From assembly GCA_025360085.1 (NCBI GenBank), contig JANYCW010000009.1, forward strand, positions 1 to 35,784: 35,784 bases of DNA, written 5' to 3'. The notes under the pieces were generated by a model. It was given only the letters and a program-made list of their open reading frames with translations, searched no databases and was not told where the DNA came from. The position numbers were made by a program, and so were the translations under genes. Shown here in pieces: positions 1-9,412 of this stretch (position 1 is the stretch's first letter; each line of letters begins with the position of its first letter). Source of the stretch: Actinomycetes bacterium (lineage in GTDB: Bacteria; Actinomycetota; Actinomycetes; Nanopelagicales; Nanopelagicaceae).

Positions 1-2
1 CA

Positions 3-119
3 TCAGATGATTTTAACTTCGATAAATACATCGTAGGTGGATGCATTGTTAGCGAAGCCAATATTGGATGTACGAAATGTGAATGGTCTGGCACTCGCAA
101 TGAGCTGGAGCAAAGCTGA
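3..119 (+). CDS. C-terminal fragment of a small Cys-containing (zinc-ribbon-like) protein
   Basis: The frame is open from the window edge to TGA at 117-119 and gives 38 residues, so the start lies outside the window. The visible part contains a Gly-Gly-Cys followed by a CTKCEW segment, which looks like half of a zinc ribbon or treble clef, and ends in a charged tail. The stop overlaps the next ATG by one base (TGATG), so the two genes are probably translationally coupled. Small coupled Cys-pair proteins of this sort are common in actinophages and integrated elements. The function is unknown, and the zinc binding is inferred from one CxxC pair only. Confidence 0.55.
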   Translation, partial: SDDFNFDKYIVGGCIVSEANIGCTKCEWSGTRNELEQS

Positions 120-325
120 TGGGGGTCTGGGATTTGATGGGGCTCCATCAAGCAATTAGGAAATGGGAGAAGCTTGCCGAGACGGTGGAACTTTCGGATT
201 CAGATCGCGACTTCTACTTAAGAAAAGTTGAAGAAGCCAAACGTGCATATGAACGCGAAACAAATGCTTGGGAGATAAGAGCTAAGAGATACGGAGAGGA
301 TGAAAATGGGCAACGTAGCGAATAG
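119..325 (+). CDS. Small hypothetical protein, probably helical (68 aa)
   Basis: The product is a charged protein rich in Glu, Lys, Arg and Ala, with a predicted amphipathic helix across residues 12-60 and no signal peptide or membrane segment. Its ATG overlaps the TGA of the upstream gene by one base, and its 3' end overlaps the start of the following zinc-ribbon frame, so it sits in a tight phage-style gene string. I do not recognise the family. A small DNA-binding or phage accessory protein would fit the setting, but nothing in the sequence proves it. Confidence 0.5.
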   Translation: MGVWDLMGLHQAIRKWEKLAETVELSDSDRDFYLRKVEEAKRAYERETNAWEIRAKRYGEDENGQRSE

Positions 326-425
326 GCAATGTCCGATGTGCAGAAGCACTGACATTCAGCAGAAGTGAACTAATGCGAACTACTACTTCCAATGCAACGC
401 ATGTGGGGAGTGGTGGAAACCATGA
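306..425 (+). pseudogene. Zinc-ribbon protein gene interrupted by an in-frame TGA
   Basis: One frame reads a first Cys pair (CPMC), reaches TGA at 366-368 after only 20 codons, and then continues in the same frame through NYYFQCNACGEWW to a second TGA at 423-425. Together the halves make the two-knuckle CxxC...CxxC layout of a compact zinc ribbon of about 39 residues. The interrupting TGA is one base from CGA (Arg), so a simple nonsense mutation explains it. ATG 306 has a GGAG nine bases upstream; ATG 300 is an alternative start. The terminal TGA overlaps the next ATG (ATGA, 422-425), which supports the full-length frame as the ancestral gene. Two separate peptides or a base-call error are the alternatives. 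Confidence 0.6.
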
Positions 426-736
426 AGAGGTTAAAAGTGACCATGGATATAGAAACCTTACGGTCTATCACTAGCTACTGCCACTGGATACCGATCACAC
501 AAGGACTCCACAAAGAATTCTTTGCAAAGAATTTTCCGGGATGGCAATGGAATGACTTTGTACCTAGATTACTTAAAAAGAAAATATTGGAATTCAAAGG
601 TGAAGGAAATGACTCCCTCGTTAAACTTTGGCAAGGCTTGTACATTTCATCCGATATTGAAGCCGTCACCTTTACACCTTCTAAAAATGGAGTAAAGATC
701 GAGCTGAAATTACGAAGTGAGGTGGACGTGAAATAG
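422..736 (+). CDS. Hypothetical protein in phage-like gene string (104 aa)
   Basis: I place the start at ATG 422, not at the earlier in-frame ATG 392, because 422-425 forms the ATGA overlap with the stop of the upstream zinc-ribbon frame. The product is a soluble protein of about 104 residues with several aromatic residues (HWIPIT, FPGWQW, LWQGLY) and no signal peptide. I recognise no domain. It is the last gene before a hairpin (780-800) and the tRNA-derived repeat at 824-841, so it may mark the right end of an integrated element. Confidence 0.5.
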   Translation: MKRLKVTMDIETLRSITSYCHWIPITQGLHKEFFAKNFPGWQWNDFVPRLLKKKILEFKGEGNDSLVKLWQGLYISSDIEAVTFTPSKNGVKIELKLRSEVDVK

Positions 737-779
737 TGTTTGAAAAAGACCTACCTAAATGCTAAGTTGGCTTTTATGA

Positions 780-800
780 CCCGTTTACCCAAAAAACGGG
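780..800 (+). terminator. Hairpin after the phage-like gene string
   Basis: CCCGTTT (780-786) pairs perfectly with AAACGGG (794-800) around a seven-base loop. It lies 44 bases after the last gene of the left-hand string. No T run follows, so it is not a classic intrinsic terminator. It could end transcription of the string or be an arm of the adjacent attachment site. Confidence 0.35.
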
Positions 801-823
801 GAATTACCCAGGATGGAGAGGAT

Positions 824-841
824 AAATCCCTCATCCTCCGC
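824..841 (+). repeat. 18-bp duplicate of the tRNA-Ser 3' end (att-like)
   Basis: The sequence aaatccctcatcctccgc is identical to 2833-2850, which covers half the T-arm, the acceptor 3' strand and the discriminator base of the tRNA-Ser gene. The bases upstream of 824 are not tRNA-like, so this is only the 3' fragment. Site-specific integrases that target tRNA 3' ends leave exactly this kind of direct repeat. It separates phage-like genes on its left from a secreted-protein gene on its right. No integrase gene is visible in the window. Confidence 0.7.
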
Positions 842-885
842 CAACTTCACTGAATTTGGATTGATCAAGCATGTTGACGACCTAG

Positions 886-1986
886 TTATTTTATCTGCCA
901 ATAGCTCTTTCCGTCACTTGCAGCGTTGCACAATAACTCTGTTCCATCAGCAGTTTTTCCGCTCGCTCCTTTTGTTGGATCACAGAGGGCACCTAACTGT
1001 TGGAAATTTGAATTTCCCGACTCCGTTGGAGCATTGGGTTTCTGAGTTTCCGCTGGTTTTATACCATTATTTGAACTACCCGAATTATTTTGTGGTGAAG
1101 ATTCTTTAGAAGCGATTGTTTCGCCTTTCAGCGCTACCCAATTCGAAGTAGTACGCCCCATCCCTGCCTTAAAATCACAAGGACTCAATTGGCGCTGAAC
1201 AAGTAGAATTTTCATCATCTCCGGAGTGATTGAATGTGATGCGAAGGCATCCAATACACTCTTAGTCATATGATCAAAAATACTTCCCAATATTTCAGCA
1301 CCATCAGGTGCGTGCGATTTTCCTTCTAAATCAATATCAAAATCAAATTGTGGGTCTGACAAAGATGCATAGCCCAATAGCTCTCCTGCCTTTACAGAAT
1401 CTCCGACTTTCAATTTTTTTGAAAAATAAATGTGACCGAATGAAAAAATGACATTCCTATCTACTGAAGTAGAAAGACCTAAGCCGTTGCCGTTCTTAGG
1501 GCGACCTACGCCGCCCTTGTCTGCTTCAAGTTGAATAGTAGAGACTGTTCCATCGAATGGTGCAAAAACTTTAACTTTGTCTATTGTTCCCTGGAATGCA
1601 GTTACTGGGTACCAATAATGTTTAAGTGAAAGATTGCTAACTGGAATCTTGTCGAAAGTATATCCATCACGATTGTGACCTGAGCAACTAGCATATTTTG
1701 AAATACTATTGATTTGATTTAAGTCGACCGGTACGGCTGTGATGTATTTAGCGTCTGGACTTGGCCAAACGAAACTTTGAGTCTTTGGATCTCCAATCGG
1801 TATCTCTCCAAACCAAATAAACTTTTTCCCAGATTTTACGCATTGATATTTTTTTCCAGAATCAGTTGCACTTTGACCAACTTTTTTGCAAGCCGTCCCT
1901 GATTTAATCGCTGCGCTAGCGTTCGGTGCAAAGAGAATGAGTGTTATCGAAATGAAAAAAATAAGAACCAATTGGCCGCGTTTCAT
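886..1986 (-). CDS. Secreted protein with M23/LytM-like beta domain
   Basis: The 366-residue product begins with a Sec signal peptide (residues 1-26, ending ASA-A). A short module with two Cys and GKK/GKKFIW follows, a pattern I recognise from predicted secreted proteins of freshwater actinobacteria. Residues 130-225 resemble a lysostaphin/M23 or biotinyl-like beta fold (APFDGTVSTI, FSFGHIYF, KVGDSVKAGELLGYAS). I see no complete HxxxD plus HxH zinc site, so peptidase activity is doubtful. A Ser/Asn/Pro-rich linker (about 285-330) leads to a second small Cys-pair module. The gene is alone on its strand between the att-like repeat at 824-841 and the 54-bp repeat. A leaderless -10 box precedes the ATG. 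Confidence 0.75.
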   Translation of the reverse strand: MKRGQLVLIFFISITLILFAPNASAAIKSGTACKKVGQSATDSGKKYQCVKSGKKFIWFGEIPIGDPKTQSFVWPSPDAKYITAVPVDLNQINSISKYASCSGHNRDGYTFDKIPVSNLSLKHYWYPVTAFQGTIDKVKVFAPFDGTVSTIQLEADKGGVGRPKNGNGLGLSTSVDRNVIFSFGHIYFSKKLKVGDSVKAGELLGYASLSDPQFDFDIDLEGKSHAPDGAEILGSIFDHMTKSVLDAFASHSITPEMMKILLVQRQLSPCDFKAGMGRTTSNWVALKGETIASKESSPQNNSGSSNNGIKPAETQKPNAPTESGNSNFQQLGALCDPTKGASGKTADGTELLCNAASDGKSYWQIK

Positions 1987-1992
1987 TTATCA

Positions 1993-1998
1993 ACCGTA
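1993..1998 (-). promoter_or_regulatory. -10 box TACGGT for a leaderless start
   Basis: Reading the minus strand, TACGGT lies six bases before the ATG at 1986 and there is no Shine-Dalgarno sequence. Transcription would begin at or next to the start codon. This fits the TANNNT pattern repeated across the window. Confidence 0.5.
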
Positions 1999-2034
1999 GT
2001 GCCTTTTATAGAAGTCACAAGTTAGGAGATGCGA

Positions 2035-2088
2035 GGAACCAGTGCTTGAAACAGAAAGTTTCTAGGTTCGGACATCCTCCGCTCGTTT
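2035..2088 (+). repeat. 54-bp imperfect direct repeat, copy A
   Basis: This copy matches 2901-2954 with seven mismatches in 54 positions, and its last 24 bases (2065-2088) are identical to 2931-2954. Its tail holds catcctccgctc, which is also the end of the tRNA-Ser gene and its flank (2841-2852). It looks like a worn tRNA 3'-end remnant or an attachment-site scar. The two copies enclose the tRNA-Ser gene. Confidence 0.75.
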
Positions 2089-2091
2089 CAC

Positions 2092-2388
2092 TCGCTTTGG
2101 CTTTATCAGGGCAACGGCAATCACACAACAAATGTCACGATTACTGTAGAAATTTGGAAGACAGGGTTATTGGGTAACCATTTCGTCTGGAAACAAAGTA
2201 TTAGAAGCCTTGGAACTACATATCCTGGTTCTCAAGTTAATAACTTCAGTACATACAGGAGATGCTTAGATGAAACTCCTACTTATTATTACGGGGTGGC
2301 ATTTTCCAAGGCTCACATCGATGGTAAATGGCAATATGCACGTCAGGTTCTCTCAAACAAAATTACACCCTTAAAGTGCCGAACTTGA
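2092..2388 (+). pseudogene. 5'-truncated gene remnant, probably of a secreted protein
   Basis: The frame is open from inside repeat copy A to TGA at 2386-2388. Codons from about 2092 encode a beta-rich segment with NHTTNVTITVEI, a central TYPGSQVNN, and a C-terminal TPTYYYGVAF and Cys-containing tail. The only start-like codon is TTG at 2170, in mid-domain and without a ribosome site. The coding sequence appears to have lost its 5' end at the repeat junction. The C-terminal aromatic motif loosely resembles the end of the frameshifted gene at 3534-4023, so the two may be relatives; that is a visual impression. A short gene starting at TTG 2170 is the alternative. Confidence 0.45.
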
Positions 2389-2390
2389 GA

Positions 2391-2396
2391 TAGCCT
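2391..2396 (+). promoter_or_regulatory. -10 box TAGCCT for a leaderless start
   Basis: TAGCCT ends six bases before ATG 2403 and no Shine-Dalgarno sequence is present, so the downstream gene is probably transcribed without a leader. Confidence 0.4.
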
Positions 2397-2402
2397 CTAA
2401 TT

Positions 2403-2735
2403 ATGGATATTGAGAACCCAGATAGCCTTTCACCTGAGCAGAAAATCCACGAACAAGATGTAATAGCGCGGTGCTTCAAGCTTATGCGTGATGAGCGATC
2501 AAGATATGAAGAACAGGCACAAAAATTATTAGCTAATGAATTCTTTTTCTCAAAAAGCGGAATCTACGACTTATCCTATTTAATTCATGATGATCGCTAC
2601 ATTTGCAATGCAATTCCACAATCGGCAGTCAGTCAGAGTTTTTCAATTGAGGCTCCGATACCTGATACCCAAAAAGAGAGAGTCGAGACACTTGTCGAAC
2701 TTTTTGCTCAAAGCGAGGTTGGTCTAATTAATTAG
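2403..2735 (+). CDS. Hypothetical soluble protein (110 aa)
   Basis: The protein is acidic, with an N-terminal helical part (residues 10-50, Glu/Arg/Gln-rich) and a C-terminal part with SFSIEAPIPDTQ. It has no signal peptide, membrane segment or recognised motif. It lies between a gene remnant and the tRNA-Ser gene, inside the pair of 54-bp repeats, and ends 31 bases before the tRNA. The start ATG 2403 is supported by a well-placed TAGCCT -10 box. I do not recognise the family, and the location suggests cargo of an integrated element. Confidence 0.5.
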   Translation: MDIENPDSLSPEQKIHEQDVIARCFKLMRDERSRYEEQAQKLLANEFFFSKSGIYDLSYLIHDDRYICNAIPQSAVSQSFSIEAPIPDTQKERVETLVELFAQSEVGLIN

Positions 2736-2766
2736 GTTTTTCTCATTTAAACCGTATGATTCCCAC

Positions 2767-2849
2767 GGAGGATTCGCATAGTGGCCGAGTGCGCGCGTCT
2801 CGAACACGCGTAGACGAAAGTCTCGAGGGTTCAAATCCCTCATCCTCCG
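2767..2849 (+). tRNA. tRNA-Ser(CGA)
   Basis: The acceptor stem GGAGGAT (2767-2773) pairs with ATCCTCC (2842-2848), followed by discriminator G. The D arm is GCAT...GTGC. The anticodon stem CGCGT/ACGCG encloses loop CTCGAAC with anticodon CGA, which reads UCG. A long class II variable arm (AGAC-GAAA-GTCT) and a T arm with GAGGG-TTCAAAT-CCCTC complete the cloverleaf. All stems pair, so the gene looks functional. CCA is not encoded. Its 3' end is the source of the duplicate at 824-841 and the likely integration target of the surrounding island. Confidence 0.97.
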
Positions 2850-2850
2850 C
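2833..2850 (+). repeat. tRNA-Ser 3' end, partner of the att-like repeat at 824-841
   Basis: These 18 bases inside and just past the tRNA are identical to 824-841, 2,009 bp upstream in the same orientation. The segment between the two copies could be, or once have been, a mobilisable unit. Confidence 0.7.
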
Positions 2851-2900
2851 TCTTAGAGCTCCGGCTGAATCACACATTCTTATTGGTCGCCCATTGACTT

Positions 2901-2954
2901 GGAACCCGTGCCTGATGCAGAAAGCTTTTTGGTTCGGACATCCTCCGCTCGTTT
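2901..2954 (+). repeat. 54-bp imperfect direct repeat, copy B
   Basis: This is the partner of 2035-2088, same length and orientation, 47 of 54 positions identical, with a 24-bp exact core at 2931-2954. It lies 52 bases after the tRNA. The lack of indels between copies suggests a fairly recent duplication or ongoing exchange. Confidence 0.75.
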
Positions 2955-2961
2955 TATCGCC

Positions 2962-2967
2962 TAACCT
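2962..2967 (+). promoter_or_regulatory. -10 box TAACCT for a leaderless start
   Basis: TAACCT ends six bases before ATG 2974 with no Shine-Dalgarno sequence. The box begins eight bases after repeat copy B, so the repeat occupies the -35 region of this promoter. Confidence 0.5.
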
Positions 2968-2973
2968 GCTCAC

Positions 2974-3333
2974 ATGGCCGAAAGATTGTTTCTACATTTG
3001 ACGACAAAGCAGGCTTGGGAGGATGCATTAATGGTGGGTACCTATTCGCTTTCCACTAAAGACAAAACTCTCAGCCAGGTCGGCTTTATTCACGGTTCAT
3101 TTCCAGATCAATTAGAAGATGTTTCAAGTTTCGTGTTTACTGGCTCGACCGAAGAGTTAGTTGTGCTGCATTTAGATATTGAGAAGCTTGAGACTAGTGG
3201 GTTGGTTGTGCGGGTTGAAGCTGGCGGTAACGGGAAGATGTTTCCACATATTTATGGCGCAATTCCTTGCAAACTCGTAGATAAAGTAACGGCAGCACAT
3301 ATGAGCCCGGACGGGCAACTCATTCAGCAATAG
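2974..3333 (+). CDS. DUF952 family protein
   Basis: The 119-residue protein has the DUF952 hallmarks in order: an N-terminal LFLHLTTKQAWEDAL, then GFIHGSF..Q near residues 37-46, a central strand VVLHLDIEKL, and FPHIYGAIP near residue 90. DUF952 proteins are small cytosolic proteins placed by fold in the ADP-ribosyltransferase-like group; no reaction is established for most of them. The length is typical, and the GFIH and FPHIYG motifs are intact. The gene is monocistronic just right of repeat copy B, so it may mark the return to ordinary chromosome or be further cargo. About 200 bp without a gene follow (3334-3521). Confidence 0.88.
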   Translation: MAERLFLHLTTKQAWEDALMVGTYSLSTKDKTLSQVGFIHGSFPDQLEDVSSFVFTGSTEELVVLHLDIEKLETSGLVVRVEAGGNGKMFPHIYGAIPCKLVDKVTAAHMSPDGQLIQQ

Positions 3334-3521
3334 GTTGATAAGATCGCTATCGGCAAAATAAAACATAGTCTTTCGAGACAAAATAAATCAAATATAACCT
3401 TTTGAAGATTCAACTCTCTCAACCACCAGTCTTTTAATTACTCTTTATTTATTTTGCTCAACCATATTTCTAACTCCAGAACTCTGCGGATAACCCGATT
3501 CATAAAGTCATAGCAAGAAGA

Positions 3522-3527
3522 TACTTT
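3522..3527 (+). promoter_or_regulatory. -10 box TACTTT for a leaderless start
   Basis: TACTTT ends six bases before ATG 3534, with no Shine-Dalgarno sequence. The intact promoter contrasts with the broken reading frame behind it. Confidence 0.45.
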
Positions 3528-3533
3528 TGATGC

Positions 3534-4023
3534 ATGCCGATAACGATTCCAAAACCAGTCTTACTCCTGCCGAAAGTCCTTAGTCTGGTTGTTGTGGGGC
3601 TCTTGGCGGCACAATTTCTACTTTTCGGAACCGGGGATAGCGTTGAGCCCAAGTGCACGCTTAGAGTGGAGCAGCCTCATTACTCAACAAGTTTAAAAGA
3701 GAGTCAAAACGTGGATGCAATAAAGCTAAACATAACTTTAACCTGCAATGTTCCGCAGAGTTACACAAGAGTTAACGCAAGCATCCAGAAAATTGAAAAT
3801 AACCGTGAAGTACAGGCTCAAAAAATTCTTTGCACAAGGCGATGTAGATCTCATTCAAAACCTTCCACTTCCCGGGGAAAATCCTCAATCTGAAGGCGGG
3901 TTTGGAATTGACACTTACCCCTATTACAGTCTTGCTTACTACGCCAATGGTAAGAATCTCTTGGCCGGATTAATTAAGAAACTCAGAACCAATGACAAGG
4001 AATTACTTACAAAACTGCGCTGA
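3534..4023 (+). pseudogene. Membrane-anchored extracellular protein, frameshifted at an A6 tract
   Basis: Two frames join into one plausible product. The first (from ATG 3534) gives a transmembrane anchor or uncleaved signal (about residues 10-32), a Cys-containing extracellular part, and KLNITLTC and VNASIQKI strands. At the run of six A near 3820 the sense continues in another frame (FFAQGDVDLIQ through YPYYSLAYYANGKN) to the stop at 4023. Removing one A would restore a protein of roughly 162 residues. In the first frame translation ends at 3893 after a basic nonsense tail. This could be a true frameshift, a sequencing or assembly error at the homopolymer, or slippage at A6. I do not recognise the family. 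Confidence 0.55.
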
Positions 4024-4125
4024 ACTGGCACTTTCAGCAAGTTCACTTTCCAGGAGTTGCTTCTCTTTTAGAGTTAGGTTCTCTAGTGAGATTGGTTTTC
4101 GACGACTTAGGAAATTAAAGAACAA

Positions 4126-5220
4126 TTACGGGACTCCTAACGCAGCCTTTAACTCAGTTTCAGTAATCCCAAGTTTTTTTGCCGCGGTTGAGAAATTTGG
4201 GGGTATTGCACCTAGTGCATCTTTCAACTGCTGCTCAGTGATTCCTAACTTCTTGGCTGCTGCGCTTAAGTCAGGACCTTGGCCTACACCTTGGGCTCCT
4301 CTAGTTTTGATAAAGTCCGTTGCAACCGTTCCGACGAACTGCCGTGCAATGTATGGGAATGCGCTTGTAATGATGTAGCAGTAGGTTCCTTTTGGAAATT
4401 CAGGAGTTACTTGAAATCGCCCATGTGCCGCGCCAAGATCGCCACTACCTGCTACGTATTCAAAATCTTGAGTGTAATCACCGTTGTATGTGCCACCTGG
4501 TCCCGTTGGTCGAACTCCCTTTTTCAATTGATAAGAAGACTTTAACGTCATTATCGAACTCTTATTATCTTTAGCTTTTGTATAACCGCGATCAAGATAA
4601 ATAGGGAACCCATCTGGACCCCAACCAATGAGTGGGGAGTGTCCGCTTCGCGAAACGATTTCACTTAAACCAATGGGTGTACCGTGATAATGATAAGTAC
4701 CGGTGGGCTGAACATGGGCGTTATTTGAATCCAAACCAAGATTTAAAAATGAGTTGAATGCTTCGATGTTCCAACCACTTGATGGATCATTGTTGTAATG
4801 CTCAGCTGTTCCCGGATCGAATACAACACCATTAATTGCCATCCCAGAAGCCGCTCCCATAATTAATTTTGGAACGCCTTGTTTTGGCACCGAGGGAATT
4901 GAATAATCCTGTTTTTGTGCCGAAATTGTGTTTGGGTTTCCTGAGTTTGGAAACGTCCCAGTTTTATGATTTGGAATTCCATTTGAAACTATTCGTCTAA
5001 CTCCATTCTTAACCGTAACACTTACTTGGCACCCCGTTGCGGTATCAGTAAATGAATAGTTACCCATTACATTGACGATAAATTTTGATGCGCCGACAGA
5101 TGGTTCGGTACTCAAAATTAAAGCTGTTAAGCCCCCACCTGTAACCGTAATTGCACTTGCAAGGCTCCCTAAAAGAAAGCCTCTCCGGTTAACTCCCGTT
5201 ACTAAAAATTCCTCTTTCAT
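4126..5220 (-). CDS. Tat-exported YHYH domain protein
   Basis: The N-terminus NRRGFLLGS followed by a hydrophobic stretch is a twin-arginine signal. The body carries the YHYH signature in GTYHYHGTP, plus HSPLIGWGPDGFPIY and GTYCYIITSAFPYI, which match the YHYH domain family. These are exported proteins of unknown function that often have metal-ligand-like His clusters. The last 50 residues contain a tandem motif: AAAKKLGITEQQLKDALG, then TAAKKLGITETELKAALG. The ATG at 5220 is favoured (GGAG eight bases upstream); an adjacent GTG at 5223 is possible. It is one of few genes here with a leader and ribosome site. It lies in a minus-strand group with the propeller protein and copper genes. Confidence 0.88.
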   Translation of the reverse strand: MKEEFLVTGVNRRGFLLGSLASAITVTGGGLTALILSTEPSVGASKFIVNVMGNYSFTDTATGCQVSVTVKNGVRRIVSNGIPNHKTGTFPNSGNPNTISAQKQDYSIPSVPKQGVPKLIMGAASGMAINGVVFDPGTAEHYNNDPSSGWNIEAFNSFLNLGLDSNNAHVQPTGTYHYHGTPIGLSEIVSRSGHSPLIGWGPDGFPIYLDRGYTKAKDNKSSIMTLKSSYQLKKGVRPTGPGGTYNGDYTQDFEYVAGSGDLGAAHGRFQVTPEFPKGTYCYIITSAFPYIARQFVGTVATDFIKTRGAQGVGQGPDLSAAAKKLGITEQQLKDALGAIPPNFSTAAKKLGITETELKAALGVP

Positions 5221-5242
5221 CACATCATCTCCGCTCTCGTTA

Positions 5243-5248
5243 ATTGTA
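5243..5248 (-). promoter_or_regulatory. -10 box TACAAT with short leader and GGAG ribosome site
   Basis: On the minus strand TACAAT is followed by a short leader that contains GGAG (5229-5232) before the GTG/ATG starts at 5223 and 5220. This gene is leadered, unlike most promoters in the window. Confidence 0.45.
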
Positions 5249-5347
5249 GAGAGTGTGCAGTCCTAAAGGTCACGGTATCTCAATCTCTCCTGAGGATTTT
5301 CTGTGAATCGAAATGTAGGAAATTCGTGGACAGAAACTGCTGGCACA

Positions 5348-6655
5348 TTATTTCCTTTTATATCCTGTAGGGCACTTCGGATTCACATCTGAAACCTTTT
5401 TCACCGCATTGCCTTTAACACACGTGATTGTAATTTTCTTCACCACTGGCTTGATTGTCTCAGATGGACTGGGCGATGCCGTTGGAGTTTGTGTTGGTTG
5501 TGGCAACGGAGTCGGTGATTGAACGGGTTGCGTGGGTTGCGTTGGGGTCGGTGATTGCATGGGTTGTGTGGGTTGCGTTGGTTGCATGACGGTTGAACCG
5601 CATGGAGGATTTATTGGGCCACCTGGGACAATTTTTGAATTCAGACAACGATCTCCCGCGTATGGCGTCGTTCCTTGACCTGGTTTTAAAACCATCACGT
5701 TTACGTATCCACCAAAACCGTGAGCAAATCCCCCACCAAATAACAGTATGTTGCCATCTTTGTCCAACAGAACATCGGGATCATTCATCTCTGTGCCACT
5801 TAAGCGAGAGTCTATTTTCGCCGTGTCAAACCATTTTTCCTCTGAAAAAATCAAACCATCGCGGCTGTGTGAATAGTGCAGACCATTTCCATTGTTATAA
5901 ATCTTTCCTGTGCCTTCTGGGTCCGCCCCGTTATCAAAATAGAAAACGGTAATTGAATTATCACTATGCCGAATTGCGGTTGGATGTTCTGCGCTTCTTT
6001 TATTACTTGGGGAGCCCACGCCTATTCGAACTCCTGGATCGCGTGTCCAATCCACACCATCATCTGATGAGGCGCTATACATCTTCCAAGGATCAGGGCC
6101 AGTTCCAGCTTTTGGTAAACCGCTGAAATACGCTTTCCATTTACCTGTACTTAGTTGAACTACGCCTGGGCCAGTAAGTCCAGAGGCTTCAGAATAGTCT
6201 GAGGCTAATAAACAGTTAGCTTTCTCCAATGTAAATGTCAATCCATCTGAAGAAATTGAACAGTTTATGCCGCCACTTGATGTTGTATATAAACGATATC
6301 GACCGTCTGAAAGTCCAACTACACGGGGTTGTCCGTTTCCTTTATCTCCACCAAAGGCATTTCCAACCCGAGTAAAACTCTTTCCATTATCTGCCGATTC
6401 CGCTGTCTCTATGCCTTTATTTTGAGCAAAAACATATGCTCTTAGTTTTCCATTTGCGAGTAAGACTACAGATACGTCAGCCACTGGTAAGCCTGCGCTA
6501 ACACCAAACATATCTGGTGTTAGCGCTCTAAAACTCAAGAGTGTCGCATCAAAAGCGCCTTTAGGGATTTCTGGAGATGCACCAAATGAGGGTGAGGGAA
6601 CAAATATTTGGGCAACTACTAAAATCAGGACAGTTAAAAATTGCTTAAGTCTCAT
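5348..6655 (-). CDS. Secreted beta-propeller protein with Pro/Thr linker (sialidase/GH43-like fold)
   Basis: The 435-residue product has a Sec signal peptide (1-26, SFGA). Residues 35-330 contain repeated propeller-type strands: SADNGKSFTRVG, SISSDGLTFTLE, ASSDDGVDWTRD and SHSRDGLIFSEE resemble Asp-box/BNR-like or GH43/GH32-like blades. I cannot identify a catalytic triad, so hydrolase activity is uncertain. A low-complexity linker of PTQPTQ and SPTP repeats (about 355-400) precedes a C-terminal module TITCVKGNAVKKV...PKCPTGYKRK, which I recognise as a recurrent tail of secreted proteins in freshwater actinobacteria and which may serve surface retention. The linker DNA is a short tandem repeat. 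A leaderless -10 box supports ATG 6655. Confidence 0.75.
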   Translation of the reverse strand: MRLKQFLTVLILVVAQIFVPSPSFGASPEIPKGAFDATLLSFRALTPDMFGVSAGLPVADVSVVLLANGKLRAYVFAQNKGIETAESADNGKSFTRVGNAFGGDKGNGQPRVVGLSDGRYRLYTTSSGGINCSISSDGLTFTLEKANCLLASDYSEASGLTGPGVVQLSTGKWKAYFSGLPKAGTGPDPWKMYSASSDDGVDWTRDPGVRIGVGSPSNKRSAEHPTAIRHSDNSITVFYFDNGADPEGTGKIYNNGNGLHYSHSRDGLIFSEEKWFDTAKIDSRLSGTEMNDPDVLLDKDGNILLFGGGFAHGFGGYVNVMVLKPGQGTTPYAGDRCLNSKIVPGGPINPPCGSTVMQPTQPTQPMQSPTPTQPTQPVQSPTPLPQPTQTPTASPSPSETIKPVVKKITITCVKGNAVKKVSDVNPKCPTGYKRK

Positions 6656-6661
6656 ACCTTG

Positions 6662-6667
6662 AATTTA
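6662..6667 (-). promoter_or_regulatory. -10 box TAAATT for a leaderless start
   Basis: On the minus strand TAAATT lies six bases before ATG 6655, with no Shine-Dalgarno sequence. Confidence 0.45.
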
Positions 6668-6711
6668 TAGGTGAACTTCAATTAATGGAAGGGCACATAT
6701 AGTCAACACAA

Positions 6712-6915
6712 TTAAGCAACTACTTGGTACCCAGCCGCTGAGACTGCTCGTGAAACCTCGTCCGTATTTAAGGTATCGGTTGAGGTAATAATTGCTATTC
6801 CTTCTGCCGCAACAGCTTTAACTTCTGATACTCCAAGGAGTTTTCCAAGTTCGGTATTCACTTTACCCTCACAATGACCGCATGACATACCTTGAATTTT
6901 GATAGTTGTTTGCAT
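6712..6915 (-). CDS. Heavy-metal-associated domain protein, copper-chaperone-like
   Basis: The 67-residue protein is a single HMA domain with the metal motif GMSCGHC (MxCxxC) near residue 10 and the usual beta-alpha-beta-beta-alpha-beta pattern ending in AAGYQVV. Such proteins bind Cu(I) and hand it to a partner such as a P-type ATPase. The start is ATG 6915, not the upstream in-frame ATG, because AGGAG lies just before it. It sits 13 bases after the end of the multicopper oxidase remnant and was probably its operon partner. The frame is intact although the oxidase is destroyed. No copper ATPase is visible in the window. Confidence 0.9.
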   Translation of the reverse strand: MQTTIKIQGMSCGHCEGKVNTELGKLLGVSEVKAVAAEGIAIITSTDTLNTDEVSRAVSAAGYQVVA

Positions 6916-6928
6916 TTTTATACTCCTT

Positions 6929-7937
6929 CTAATTAACTCGAACAATACCCATCATACCGAAATCTTCATGATCGAGGTTGTGACAGTGATACACAGTTAC
7001 TCCTTTAAAGTCACTGAATTTTAGTCTTATTGTCACTGATTTACCCGACGGAATACTCACTACATCGTGTAAGCCTTCTACCATTTCGCCGTCACCATTA
7101 TCCATAATCAAAAAACTCAAACTTTTTACCATCAAAGATTTGATGAGTGCCTGTTCCAATAGGTTTAATTAAAACCTCTACTCGTTGTCCCGGCACCACT
7201 TTAATTGAGTTAATTAGAACCGCTTCAGGGAGTCTGCCGCCATCGGTTGAAATTAGCCCTATCTCCGAGCTATCCACGTTCAAATTTAAATATCTAGATG
7301 AACACGCGTTGAGGATCCTCCATCTTTCGATTACGTTAGGTTTAGAAATAATCTGCGGGTTGAGTTGACCATTAATTAGCAAGAAGTCACCTAAACGCCC
7401 ATGTGCCTGATCCATCATATAAGTATCCATGATGCTCGAATCGCTCTCGATTCGTGGAGCTGCATACATCAATACTCGATCTGTAGAGTTTTTAAACTCA
7501 CCCTGTTTATCAATTGCGTCCTCAATAATAATCACACCTGCCAATCCTGCAAACATTTGCTTGGCAACAGACATATGATGATGTGGGTGGTACCAAAAAG
7601 TTCCACTCGGTGACACATGCAATCCATGAGTATGAAAATTCGTGGCCATTGAAGTCGAATTCAGCAATTTTATTTTTAGAGTATCTCCGGGCTTTACTAT
7701 GAGCGTTGGTGCAGGAAACCCACCGTTTTAGGTAAGCGCCCATCGCTTGGAGCCATTGAAAGGCTACATGGTCTCATCGGCTTTGAGCGTTAAATTTAAA
7801 AGACCTTTCATGCTCCAAATTCATTTTGGTTCAATCAGAGCTTGGGATGCGGCCTGCGCTGAATCCAAAAATAACTTTGAAGAAACCGTCAACAGTATTA
7901 CTGCTCCCGCGCTACCTAAAAAAGATCGTCGACTTAT
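6929..7937 (-). pseudogene. Multicopper oxidase, heavily degraded (nonsense codons, deletions, frameshift)
   Basis: On the minus strand one frame reads a Tat-type signal (SRRSFLGSAGAV) preceded by ATA where ATG is expected. It then meets TGA, TAG and TAA in frame within about 60 codons; the TAA falls at the Tyr of the conserved YNGGFPAPTL motif. The frame continues through IVKPGDTLKIKLLN and the copper motifs HTHG and WYHPHHH. Between HVSPSG and TFWYHPHHH the 25 or so residues usual in the family are missing. After FEFFDYG the frame breaks near 7100-7160, and most of the third cupredoxin, including the HPxHxH ligands, is gone. The end with HCHNLDHEDFGMM survives in another frame. The remnant would be about 330 codons against roughly 450-500 in the family. 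Confidence 0.9.
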
Positions 7938-7993
7938 TTAGGGGTCAATTAATTTAAAAAGTACTTTTACTTGGGCTAGCACTCAAACGTATC

Positions 7994-9412
7994 TTAAATT
8001 TCGACACCAATATATTTAGTTTGTAAAAATTCATGTATGCCATCAAAGCCACCTTCTCGACCCAAACCAGATTGCTTAACACCTCCAAATGGCGCAGCAG
8101 GATCTGAAATCACACCTTTATTAATCGCCACCATTCCTGACTCCATAGCTTCGGCAGTTCGCAATGCACGAAATAAGTCCTTCGAAAATACATAGCTAAT
8201 GAGTCCAAAGTCGGTGTCATTTGCCAACGCGATTCCTTCTGCATCGGTATCAAAAATTACAATTGGAGCAACTGGTCCGAAGATTTCATGATTGAGAATC
8301 GGATTATCCTTTTCAACCGTTAGAACGGTCGCTGGATAAAAAGCACCTTCTCCATCAGGCTTTATCCCACCTATGAGAACTTTGGCACCTGCAGCAATTG
8401 ACTCGTCAACAATTTCCGCTATTTTGTTGCGCTCTTTCAAGGAAACGCTGGCACCTAAAGTAGTTGTTGCATCTGTGCCACGACCCATGACAAAAGCTGA
8501 CATTGACTTTGTTAATTCAGCAATAAATTTATCTGCAATTGGGCGCTGGACATATATTCGATTCGCAGATGTGCACGCAGCTCCACCATTACGCATCTTG
8601 GCCAGAAGTAGTTGCGGAATAGTTACTGTTAAATCGGCATCATCGTGGATGATCACTTGGGCATTTCCACCAAGCTCCATTGAGCAGCGAATTACATTAT
8701 CGGCCGCTTCTTTAAGCAAAACCTTGCCCACTTCAGTTGACCCCGTGAATGAAAGATTTTTGACGCGGGGGTCGTGCAGCATCTTTGAAATTGCAGGTCC
8801 AGTTTTTTCCGGAAGTACCAGATTTAGCACTCCCTTTGGTAAACCTGCTCGCTGCATAATGTCGACGATGTACATCGCAGTTAATGGAGTTTCAGTTGCG
8901 GGTTTTAAAATCATTGTGCAACCTGCAGCAATCGCGGGTCCGATTTTGCGTGTAGCCATACCCGCAGGAAAGTTCCATGGAGTGATTAAAATCGATAGCC
9001 CGATTGGCTGATGGGTCACCAAAATTCGCTTATCTCCCGATGGCGATTTACGGAAATCTCCTGGAGTCCTCACCGCTTCTTCGGCAAACCATCTGAAAAA
9101 CTCTGCCGCATATCCCACTTCTCCCCGTGCATCTGGCATCGCTTTTCCATTTTCGCGCGAGATGAGCGTTGCGATTTCCTCAATTTCACTGCTCATAATT
9201 TCAAATGCCTTACGCAAAATTTCTGATCGATATCGAGGTGCCGTCTTAGCCCAAGCCACTGCAGCCGCATCTGAGGCAGCGATAGCGGCTTCGCATTCAG
9301 TGTCTCCTGCAAGTGAAACCTCGGTAATTATCGAACCGTCACTCGGATCATGGACGGCAATTGTGCTAGATCCATCAACCCATTGCCCGTCTATAAATAA
9401 CTGTGTACGCAT
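7994..9412 (-). CDS. gabD: NAD(P)-dependent succinate-semialdehyde dehydrogenase
   Basis: The 472-residue protein is a full-length aldehyde dehydrogenase of the GabD type, oxidising succinate semialdehyde to succinate in the cytosol. The catalytic residues are present: Asn147 in TPWNFP, Lys170 in LKPATETP, Glu246 in MELGGN and nucleophile Cys280 in GGAACTSANRIYV. FTGSTEVGK and the C-terminal PFGGVKQSGLGREGG are typical. It is monocistronic, divergent from the APC permease, and has a leaderless -10 box. With the polyamine importer and class III aminotransferase later in the window it could complete a putrescine/GABA to succinate route. Other short-chain semialdehydes are possible substrates. 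Confidence 0.93.
   Translation of the reverse strand: MRTQLFIDGQWVDGSSTIAVHDPSDGSIITEVSLAGDTECEAAIAASDAAAVAWAKTAPRYRSEILRKAFEIMSSEIEEIATLISRENGKAMPDARGEVGYAAEFFRWFAEEAVRTPGDFRKSPSGDKRILVTHQPIGLSILITPWNFPAGMATRKIGPAIAAGCTMILKPATETPLTAMYIVDIMQRAGLPKGVLNLVLPEKTGPAISKMLHDPRVKNLSFTGSTEVGKVLLKEAADNVIRCSMELGGNAQVIIHDDADLTVTIPQLLLAKMRNGGAACTSANRIYVQRPIADKFIAELTKSMSAFVMGRGTDATTTLGASVSLKERNKIAEIVDESIAAGAKVLIGGIKPDGEGAFYPATVLTVEKDNPILNHEIFGPVAPIVIFDTDAEGIALANDTDFGLISYVFSKDLFRALRTAEAMESGMVAINKGVISDPAAPFGGVKQSGLGREGGFDGIHEFLQTKYIGVEI

Follow-up and report, generated by a model that had tools for sequence, protein, structure and literature searches.

Based on sequence comparison across a genus, we conclude that the left part of the window (the whole stretch of 35,784 nucleotides analyzed here, which is the start of contig C2 and has the contig end at position 1) very probably belongs to a tandem pile of site-specific cassettes located downstream of a tRNA-Ser(GGA) gene. 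The locus and its counterparts in relatives display tRNA-end repeats, inverted arms and ends that are conserved although the cargo is unrelated; some relatives have empty sites or lack single units, and near-identical cassettes are found in distant species.

The sequence AAATCCCTCATCCTCCGC occurs twice, at 824–841 and 2833–2850, as exact copies on the same strand and 2,009 bp apart. No further copy with up to three mismatches was found in the window and none in 100 shuffled versions, so the 18-bp repeat is real and chance is excluded. The second copy is the 3′ end of a tRNA-Ser gene recognized by ARAGORN. Coordinates, strand and spacing, as given in the first-pass annotation, were thereby confirmed, and tRNA-targeted integration, which it had proposed, is well supported. 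Overlooked at that stage were partial core copies, CATCCTCCGC, at 2073–2082 and 2939–2948, both enclosed by a 54-nt repeat (2035–2088 and 2901–2954, 87% identity). Further to the right, in 2949–7993, the best match to the core has 13 of 18 positions, equal to shuffled sequence. Two reading frames of the region are broken: a zinc-ribbon-like ORF at 319–420 has an in-frame TGA, and a gene for a secreted protein at 3534–4023 is split across two frames. At 5508–5588, a 36-nt tandem repeat encodes the Gln/Pro/Thr-rich linker of a secreted protein that matches BNR weakly.

Table 1. Features of the left part of the window and the observations on which their assignment is based.
Feature	Position	Strand	Basis or remark
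Right part of a putative class-1 integrative element	1–841	+	attR at right edge; contig starts at 1; synteny in relatives
Conserved class-1 right end	755–841	+	~70–87 bp, 84–97% identical to cassette ends of relatives
Arm GGGGAATTACCCAGG	798–812	+	Reverse complement of the C11 arm after tRNA-Ser(GGA); alignment
att core, copy of tRNA-Ser 3′ end	824–841	+	Reaches 843 (..CGCCA) when compared with tRNA-Ser(GGA)
Class-2 unit	842–2082		Degenerate left end 842–867, cargo gene, right end 2035–2082
Cargo gene, secreted protein of 366 aa	886–1986	−	Weak M23 peptidase match
Class-2 unit with a complete tRNA-Ser(CGA) at its right end	2083–2850	+	Class-2 left end
Remnant of a secreted protein, C-terminal half	2170–2388	+	~155 aa long in G010
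Protein of 110 aa, recurrent in CGA units	2403–2735	+	Outside known Pfam, PHROGs and NCBIfam families
TATGAT, candidate −10 box for tRNA-Ser(CGA)	2755–2760	+	Comparison of CGA copies
tRNA-Ser(CGA)	2767–2850	+	ARAGORN; 3′ end is the att core
Class-2 unit of 98 bp, both ends, gene-free	2851–2948		13 instances of this module aligned
Remaining variable island	2949–7993		DUF952, YHYH and other genes
Aldehyde dehydrogenase (ALDH), native right flank	7994–9412	−	Syntenic in relatives

In the same genome, a tRNA-Ser(GGA) gene lies near the end of another contig, C11, after genes which, from their sequence, are presumably recR, dnaX and the SRP RNA. Downstream of this tRNA come a 161-aa ORF (weak AbrB/MraZ-like match) and then a tyrosine integrase (PF00589, E = 7.8e-19), in which the catalytic R, H-x-x-R, H and Y are readable; the gene runs off the contig end, and its last residues are cut. 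The C11 sequence CCTGGGTAATTCCCC, after the GGA tRNA, is the reverse complement of the DNA directly left of 824–841, and CCAGGACCTGGGTAATTCCCC, directly 3′ of this tRNA, includes the reverse complement of GGGGAATTACCCAGG. Together with the synteny in relatives, this complementarity makes it most likely that an element inserted at tRNA-Ser(GGA) has its right end (attR) at 824–841 and its left end, with the integrase, on C11. Since tRNA-Ser(GGA) is followed by ALDH in the 36 relatives that carry both on one contig, C11 and C2, the join of which is absent from the assembly, would by synteny most likely be neighbors. The first-pass annotation had offered two options for the repeat, and the one in which 824–841 is a right end with tRNA and integrase to its left fits best, the tRNA being GGA instead of CGA. 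A second tRNA-Ser(CGA) to the left of the window was not found and is rejected, as the tRNA there is GGA; the expected tyrosine integrase exists on C11, so that by synteny both a tRNA and an integrase are present upstream.

The arm, allowing up to one mismatch, was found in 29 of the 135 genomes of the genus that were searched, against 1 match for the control. Arm and core occur together on 22 contigs of the genome_contigs set, and most of those that reach far enough have ALDH less than 6 kb downstream. An integrase of the C11 type was found in only two of the 135 genomes, our own and G143, adjoining attL at the left end and at a contig end both times. Accordingly, no complete helper element was found among the 135 genomes, both integrases sitting at contig ends. 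G143 has the same arrangement of tRNA, integrase (90% identical) and arm, but after its CGA tRNA. While attL and attR of our genome are on two contigs, G119 and G125 have both on one contig but without an integrase.

The interval between tRNA-Ser(GGA) and ALDH is filled with variable DNA and ranges across relatives from 3 bp to approx. 8.4 kb. In G104, G107, G001 and G127, only 3–11 bp separate the tRNA 3′ end from ALDH, so these are empty sites; non-empty intervals measure 0.2 to approx. 8.4 kb. Related genomes with the repeat and no variable content, which had been named as a possible objection to integration, are thus not what is seen: the content varies among relatives. Carriers of class-1 ends include the acI isolates IMCC26103 and IMCC19121, which are classified as acI-A4 and acI-A7, respectively (PMC5301498). 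This acI-like att end is also present in four public MAG records (L198, L200, L202, L204) whose titles, Streptomyces griseus or Bifidobacterium breve, look wrong.

Two classes of ends were distinguished. Class-1 right ends of approx. 70–87 bp are common to cassettes with unrelated cargo, e.g., a two-component system, a GNAT acetyltransferase, a zinc-binding dehydrogenase or an HTH regulator. Clear class-1 left ends bearing the inverted arm were seen in C11, G143 and G119, and degenerate ones in G125 and G171; in many units, the left arm is degenerate or absent. Class-2 ends delimit gene-free modules of 95–100 bp as well as longer units, and their left-end pattern was confined to this locus in our search. 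A structured RNA was considered for the class-2 module and set aside, as single-sequence folds disagree. In the window, the degenerate class-2 left end of the unit 842–2082 was assigned from 75% identity between 832–867 and 2073–2108. The cargo protein of this unit matches PF01551 with E = 0.01, short of the curated cut-off. The left end of 2083–2850 is common to units in G010, G141, G037, G039 and G054, and the unit is 86% identical to that of G010 over 608 bp. Its 110-aa protein has no match in Pfam, PHROGs or NCBIfam. Together with the secreted protein of approx. 155 aa, it forms a gene pair (2170–2735 in the window) which often directly precedes the final tRNA in the pile and which recurs, likewise without a family match, in the islands of G010, G037, G039, G054, G141 and G052. 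A class-1 right end was also observed at a second, non-tRNA place in G104 (C16, approx. 296144; L095/L219–L220). There, the core match stops after AAATCCCTCA; this may reflect an off-target insertion and give a hint of where crossover occurs.

The DNA between the two perfect repeats is two stacked units, not one. In G010, the CGA unit begins, with its class-2 left end, immediately after the class-1 attR, and 842–2082 is cleanly absent; this segment is therefore a separate insertion. The second option of the first-pass annotation, a unit 842–2850 carrying the tRNA, thus holds for the tRNA, but the unit in question is 2083–2850. A single mobile element with its own tRNA-Ser(CGA) would be bounded by perfect 18-bp repeats, and recombination between them would excise exactly 842–2850; nevertheless, we consider it highly improbable, as the internal core at 2073–2082 is flanked on both sides by class-2 ends and the direct contact between attR and the right half in G010 indicates that the two halves move separately. 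The CGA tRNA itself was found in 16 of 135 genomes, in 15 of them sharing a contig with, and lying beside, GGA or ALDH (in G171 it is on a different contig). CGA could be a resident tandem copy of GGA that was pushed away by cassettes and is not cargo. This is a real possibility, somewhat short of an even chance; it concerns the CGA tRNA only and is compatible with the rest of the cassette model. GGA and CGA are 28–30 bp apart in G053, G042 and G143, and most CGA genomes form one clade of 18. However, displaced CGA genes follow several different cassette genes, often with the TATGAT box and without the short spacer, G039 and G141 each have two CGA copies within the pile, and CGA is also present in the distant G042 and G157. 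TATGAT is identical in 9 of 17 CGA copies despite differing upstream DNA. In G052 (L088) and G060 (L094), a unit ends in a second, altered GGA-like tRNA or a tRNA fragment, so that travel or decay within the pile may affect further tRNA copies as well.

Movement of the cassettes between species is suggested by their similarity. The cassette shared by G105 and G106 has 94.4% identity over 3 kb, as opposed to 68.9% for the flanking ALDH, and that of G158 and G173 has 89.0%, as opposed to 72.9%. Mapped on a 41-genome ALDH tree, the distribution is patchy and calls for at least 10 (class-1), at least 8 (class-2) and at least 7 (CGA) changes. A spread solely by homologous recombination in the tRNA and ALDH flanks, with the repeats as fossils, would agree with most islands lacking an integrase: when coordinates of domain matches were compared with those of the islands, no integrase domain was found within the islands of 28 genomes. 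We nonetheless regard this as unlikely, since ALDH flanks are only 69–73% identical while the cassettes reach 89–94%, the arms are maintained in many genomes and G104 has a class-1 end at a non-tRNA site; flanking recombination could be an additional route for cassettes between strains. Near-identical cassettes in divergent genomes, together with the rare left-end integrase, instead make movement by a visiting helper integrase likely, as far as can be read from the sequences. There is very little chance that 824–841 is the right end of a prophage. The tRNA target would suit a prophage, and the tyrosine integrase matches phage integrase families. However, no phage gene was found nearby, relatives of the integrase are absent from IMG/VR and phage records, and the attR pattern is absent from IMG/VR. 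The phage-like genes reported to the left of 824 could not be substantiated, the best PHROGs match having E = 0.04; the protein at 422–733 has no relative in IMG/VR, and no phage structural or replication genes were found in the part of the element within the window, its middle being missing. With no phage match to these genes, to integrase relatives or to the attR pattern, a prophage was rejected. Among plasmids, relatives of the integrase amounted to a single weak match of 29%. Also dismissed was an integron (15.9 bits with the integron integrase model, cut-off 265; the unit border is a tRNA 3′ end).

For the tandem pile of cassettes, we propose the following mechanism. An occasional element, with its left end on C11, would supply a tyrosine integrase. 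With the arms as guides, this enzyme would recombine the 18–20 bp core at the 3′ end of the tRNA gene with a second, matching core. The same integrase may also move resident cassettes which have the same kind of end and no integrase of their own. Every insertion would restore the tRNA and deposit a core copy at the right edge of the unit, and for this reason units would stack. The core at 824–841 would be one such right edge, with 842–2082, 2083–2850 and 2851–2948 as further units; 2083–2850 would bring an accessory tRNA-Ser(CGA), its 3′ end being a possible new target. Rather tentatively, the locus might even be a helper-dependent system based on a tyrosine integrase and a tRNA site, in which integrase-free cassettes, some of approx. 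100 bp, keep common ends for a visiting integrase. In such a system, the tRNA-Ser(CGA) carried by a cassette would serve as cargo and, at the same time, as a new site for insertion.

The locus is thus a detailed and partly new example of a known route of gene gain and loss in bacteria with small genomes. It offers a base-level view, across many genomes, of gene turnover at one tRNA in an abundant, streamlined freshwater lineage, suggests that a tRNA gene can travel within such a cassette, and has ends and empty sites precise enough for testing helper mobilization of integrase-free cassettes. In the open-licence papers searched, no precedent was found for shared ends on small integrase-free units combined with a tRNA-bearing unit. 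The nearest known kinds are additive genomic islands and cis-mobilizable elements (CIMEs) that accrete in tandem. Additive flexible genomic islands at tRNA genes are described for ‘Ca. Actinomarinales’ (PMC7771536) and Methylophilaceae (PMC10872708). As in those, we found a conserved tRNA and conserved flanks around variable genes, small cassettes whose borders each carry the tRNA 3′ end as a direct repeat, empty sites in relatives, a streamlined aquatic host and exchange between taxa. In contrast to them, the host lineage, judged by named relatives, is acI/‘Ca. Nanopelagicales’, two conserved end classes, inverted arms and gene-free units are resolved, an integrase is present at the tRNA in two genomes, and one unit bears a tRNA. 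CIMEs and their tandem accretion (PMC5704250) provide the term for stacked elements that lack an integrase. Likewise, the units here bear att sites, have no integration or transfer genes and are stacked with an integrase element at one tRNA; both ends are recognizable and the integrase is absent in G119, G125 and G171, with the left end of 842–2082 in the window being degenerate and the absence of conjugation and other transfer genes judged from the listed ORFs alone. The units differ from CIMEs in their size of 0.1–3.7 kb and in usually holding one operon, and are known here from sequences alone. Tycheposons, described as 4–200 kb long (PMC10872708), share the tRNA site, the tyrosine recombinase and the presence of cargo, whereas our units are much smaller and mostly lack a recombinase. 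A close parallel is provided by the ssrA islands of Dehalococcoides, tandem units which have 20-bp repeats of an RNA gene 3′ end at their borders and 15 of which have no integration module (PMC3146451); there, a serine recombinase acts at a tmRNA gene, while here a tyrosine integrase is paired with tRNA-Ser.
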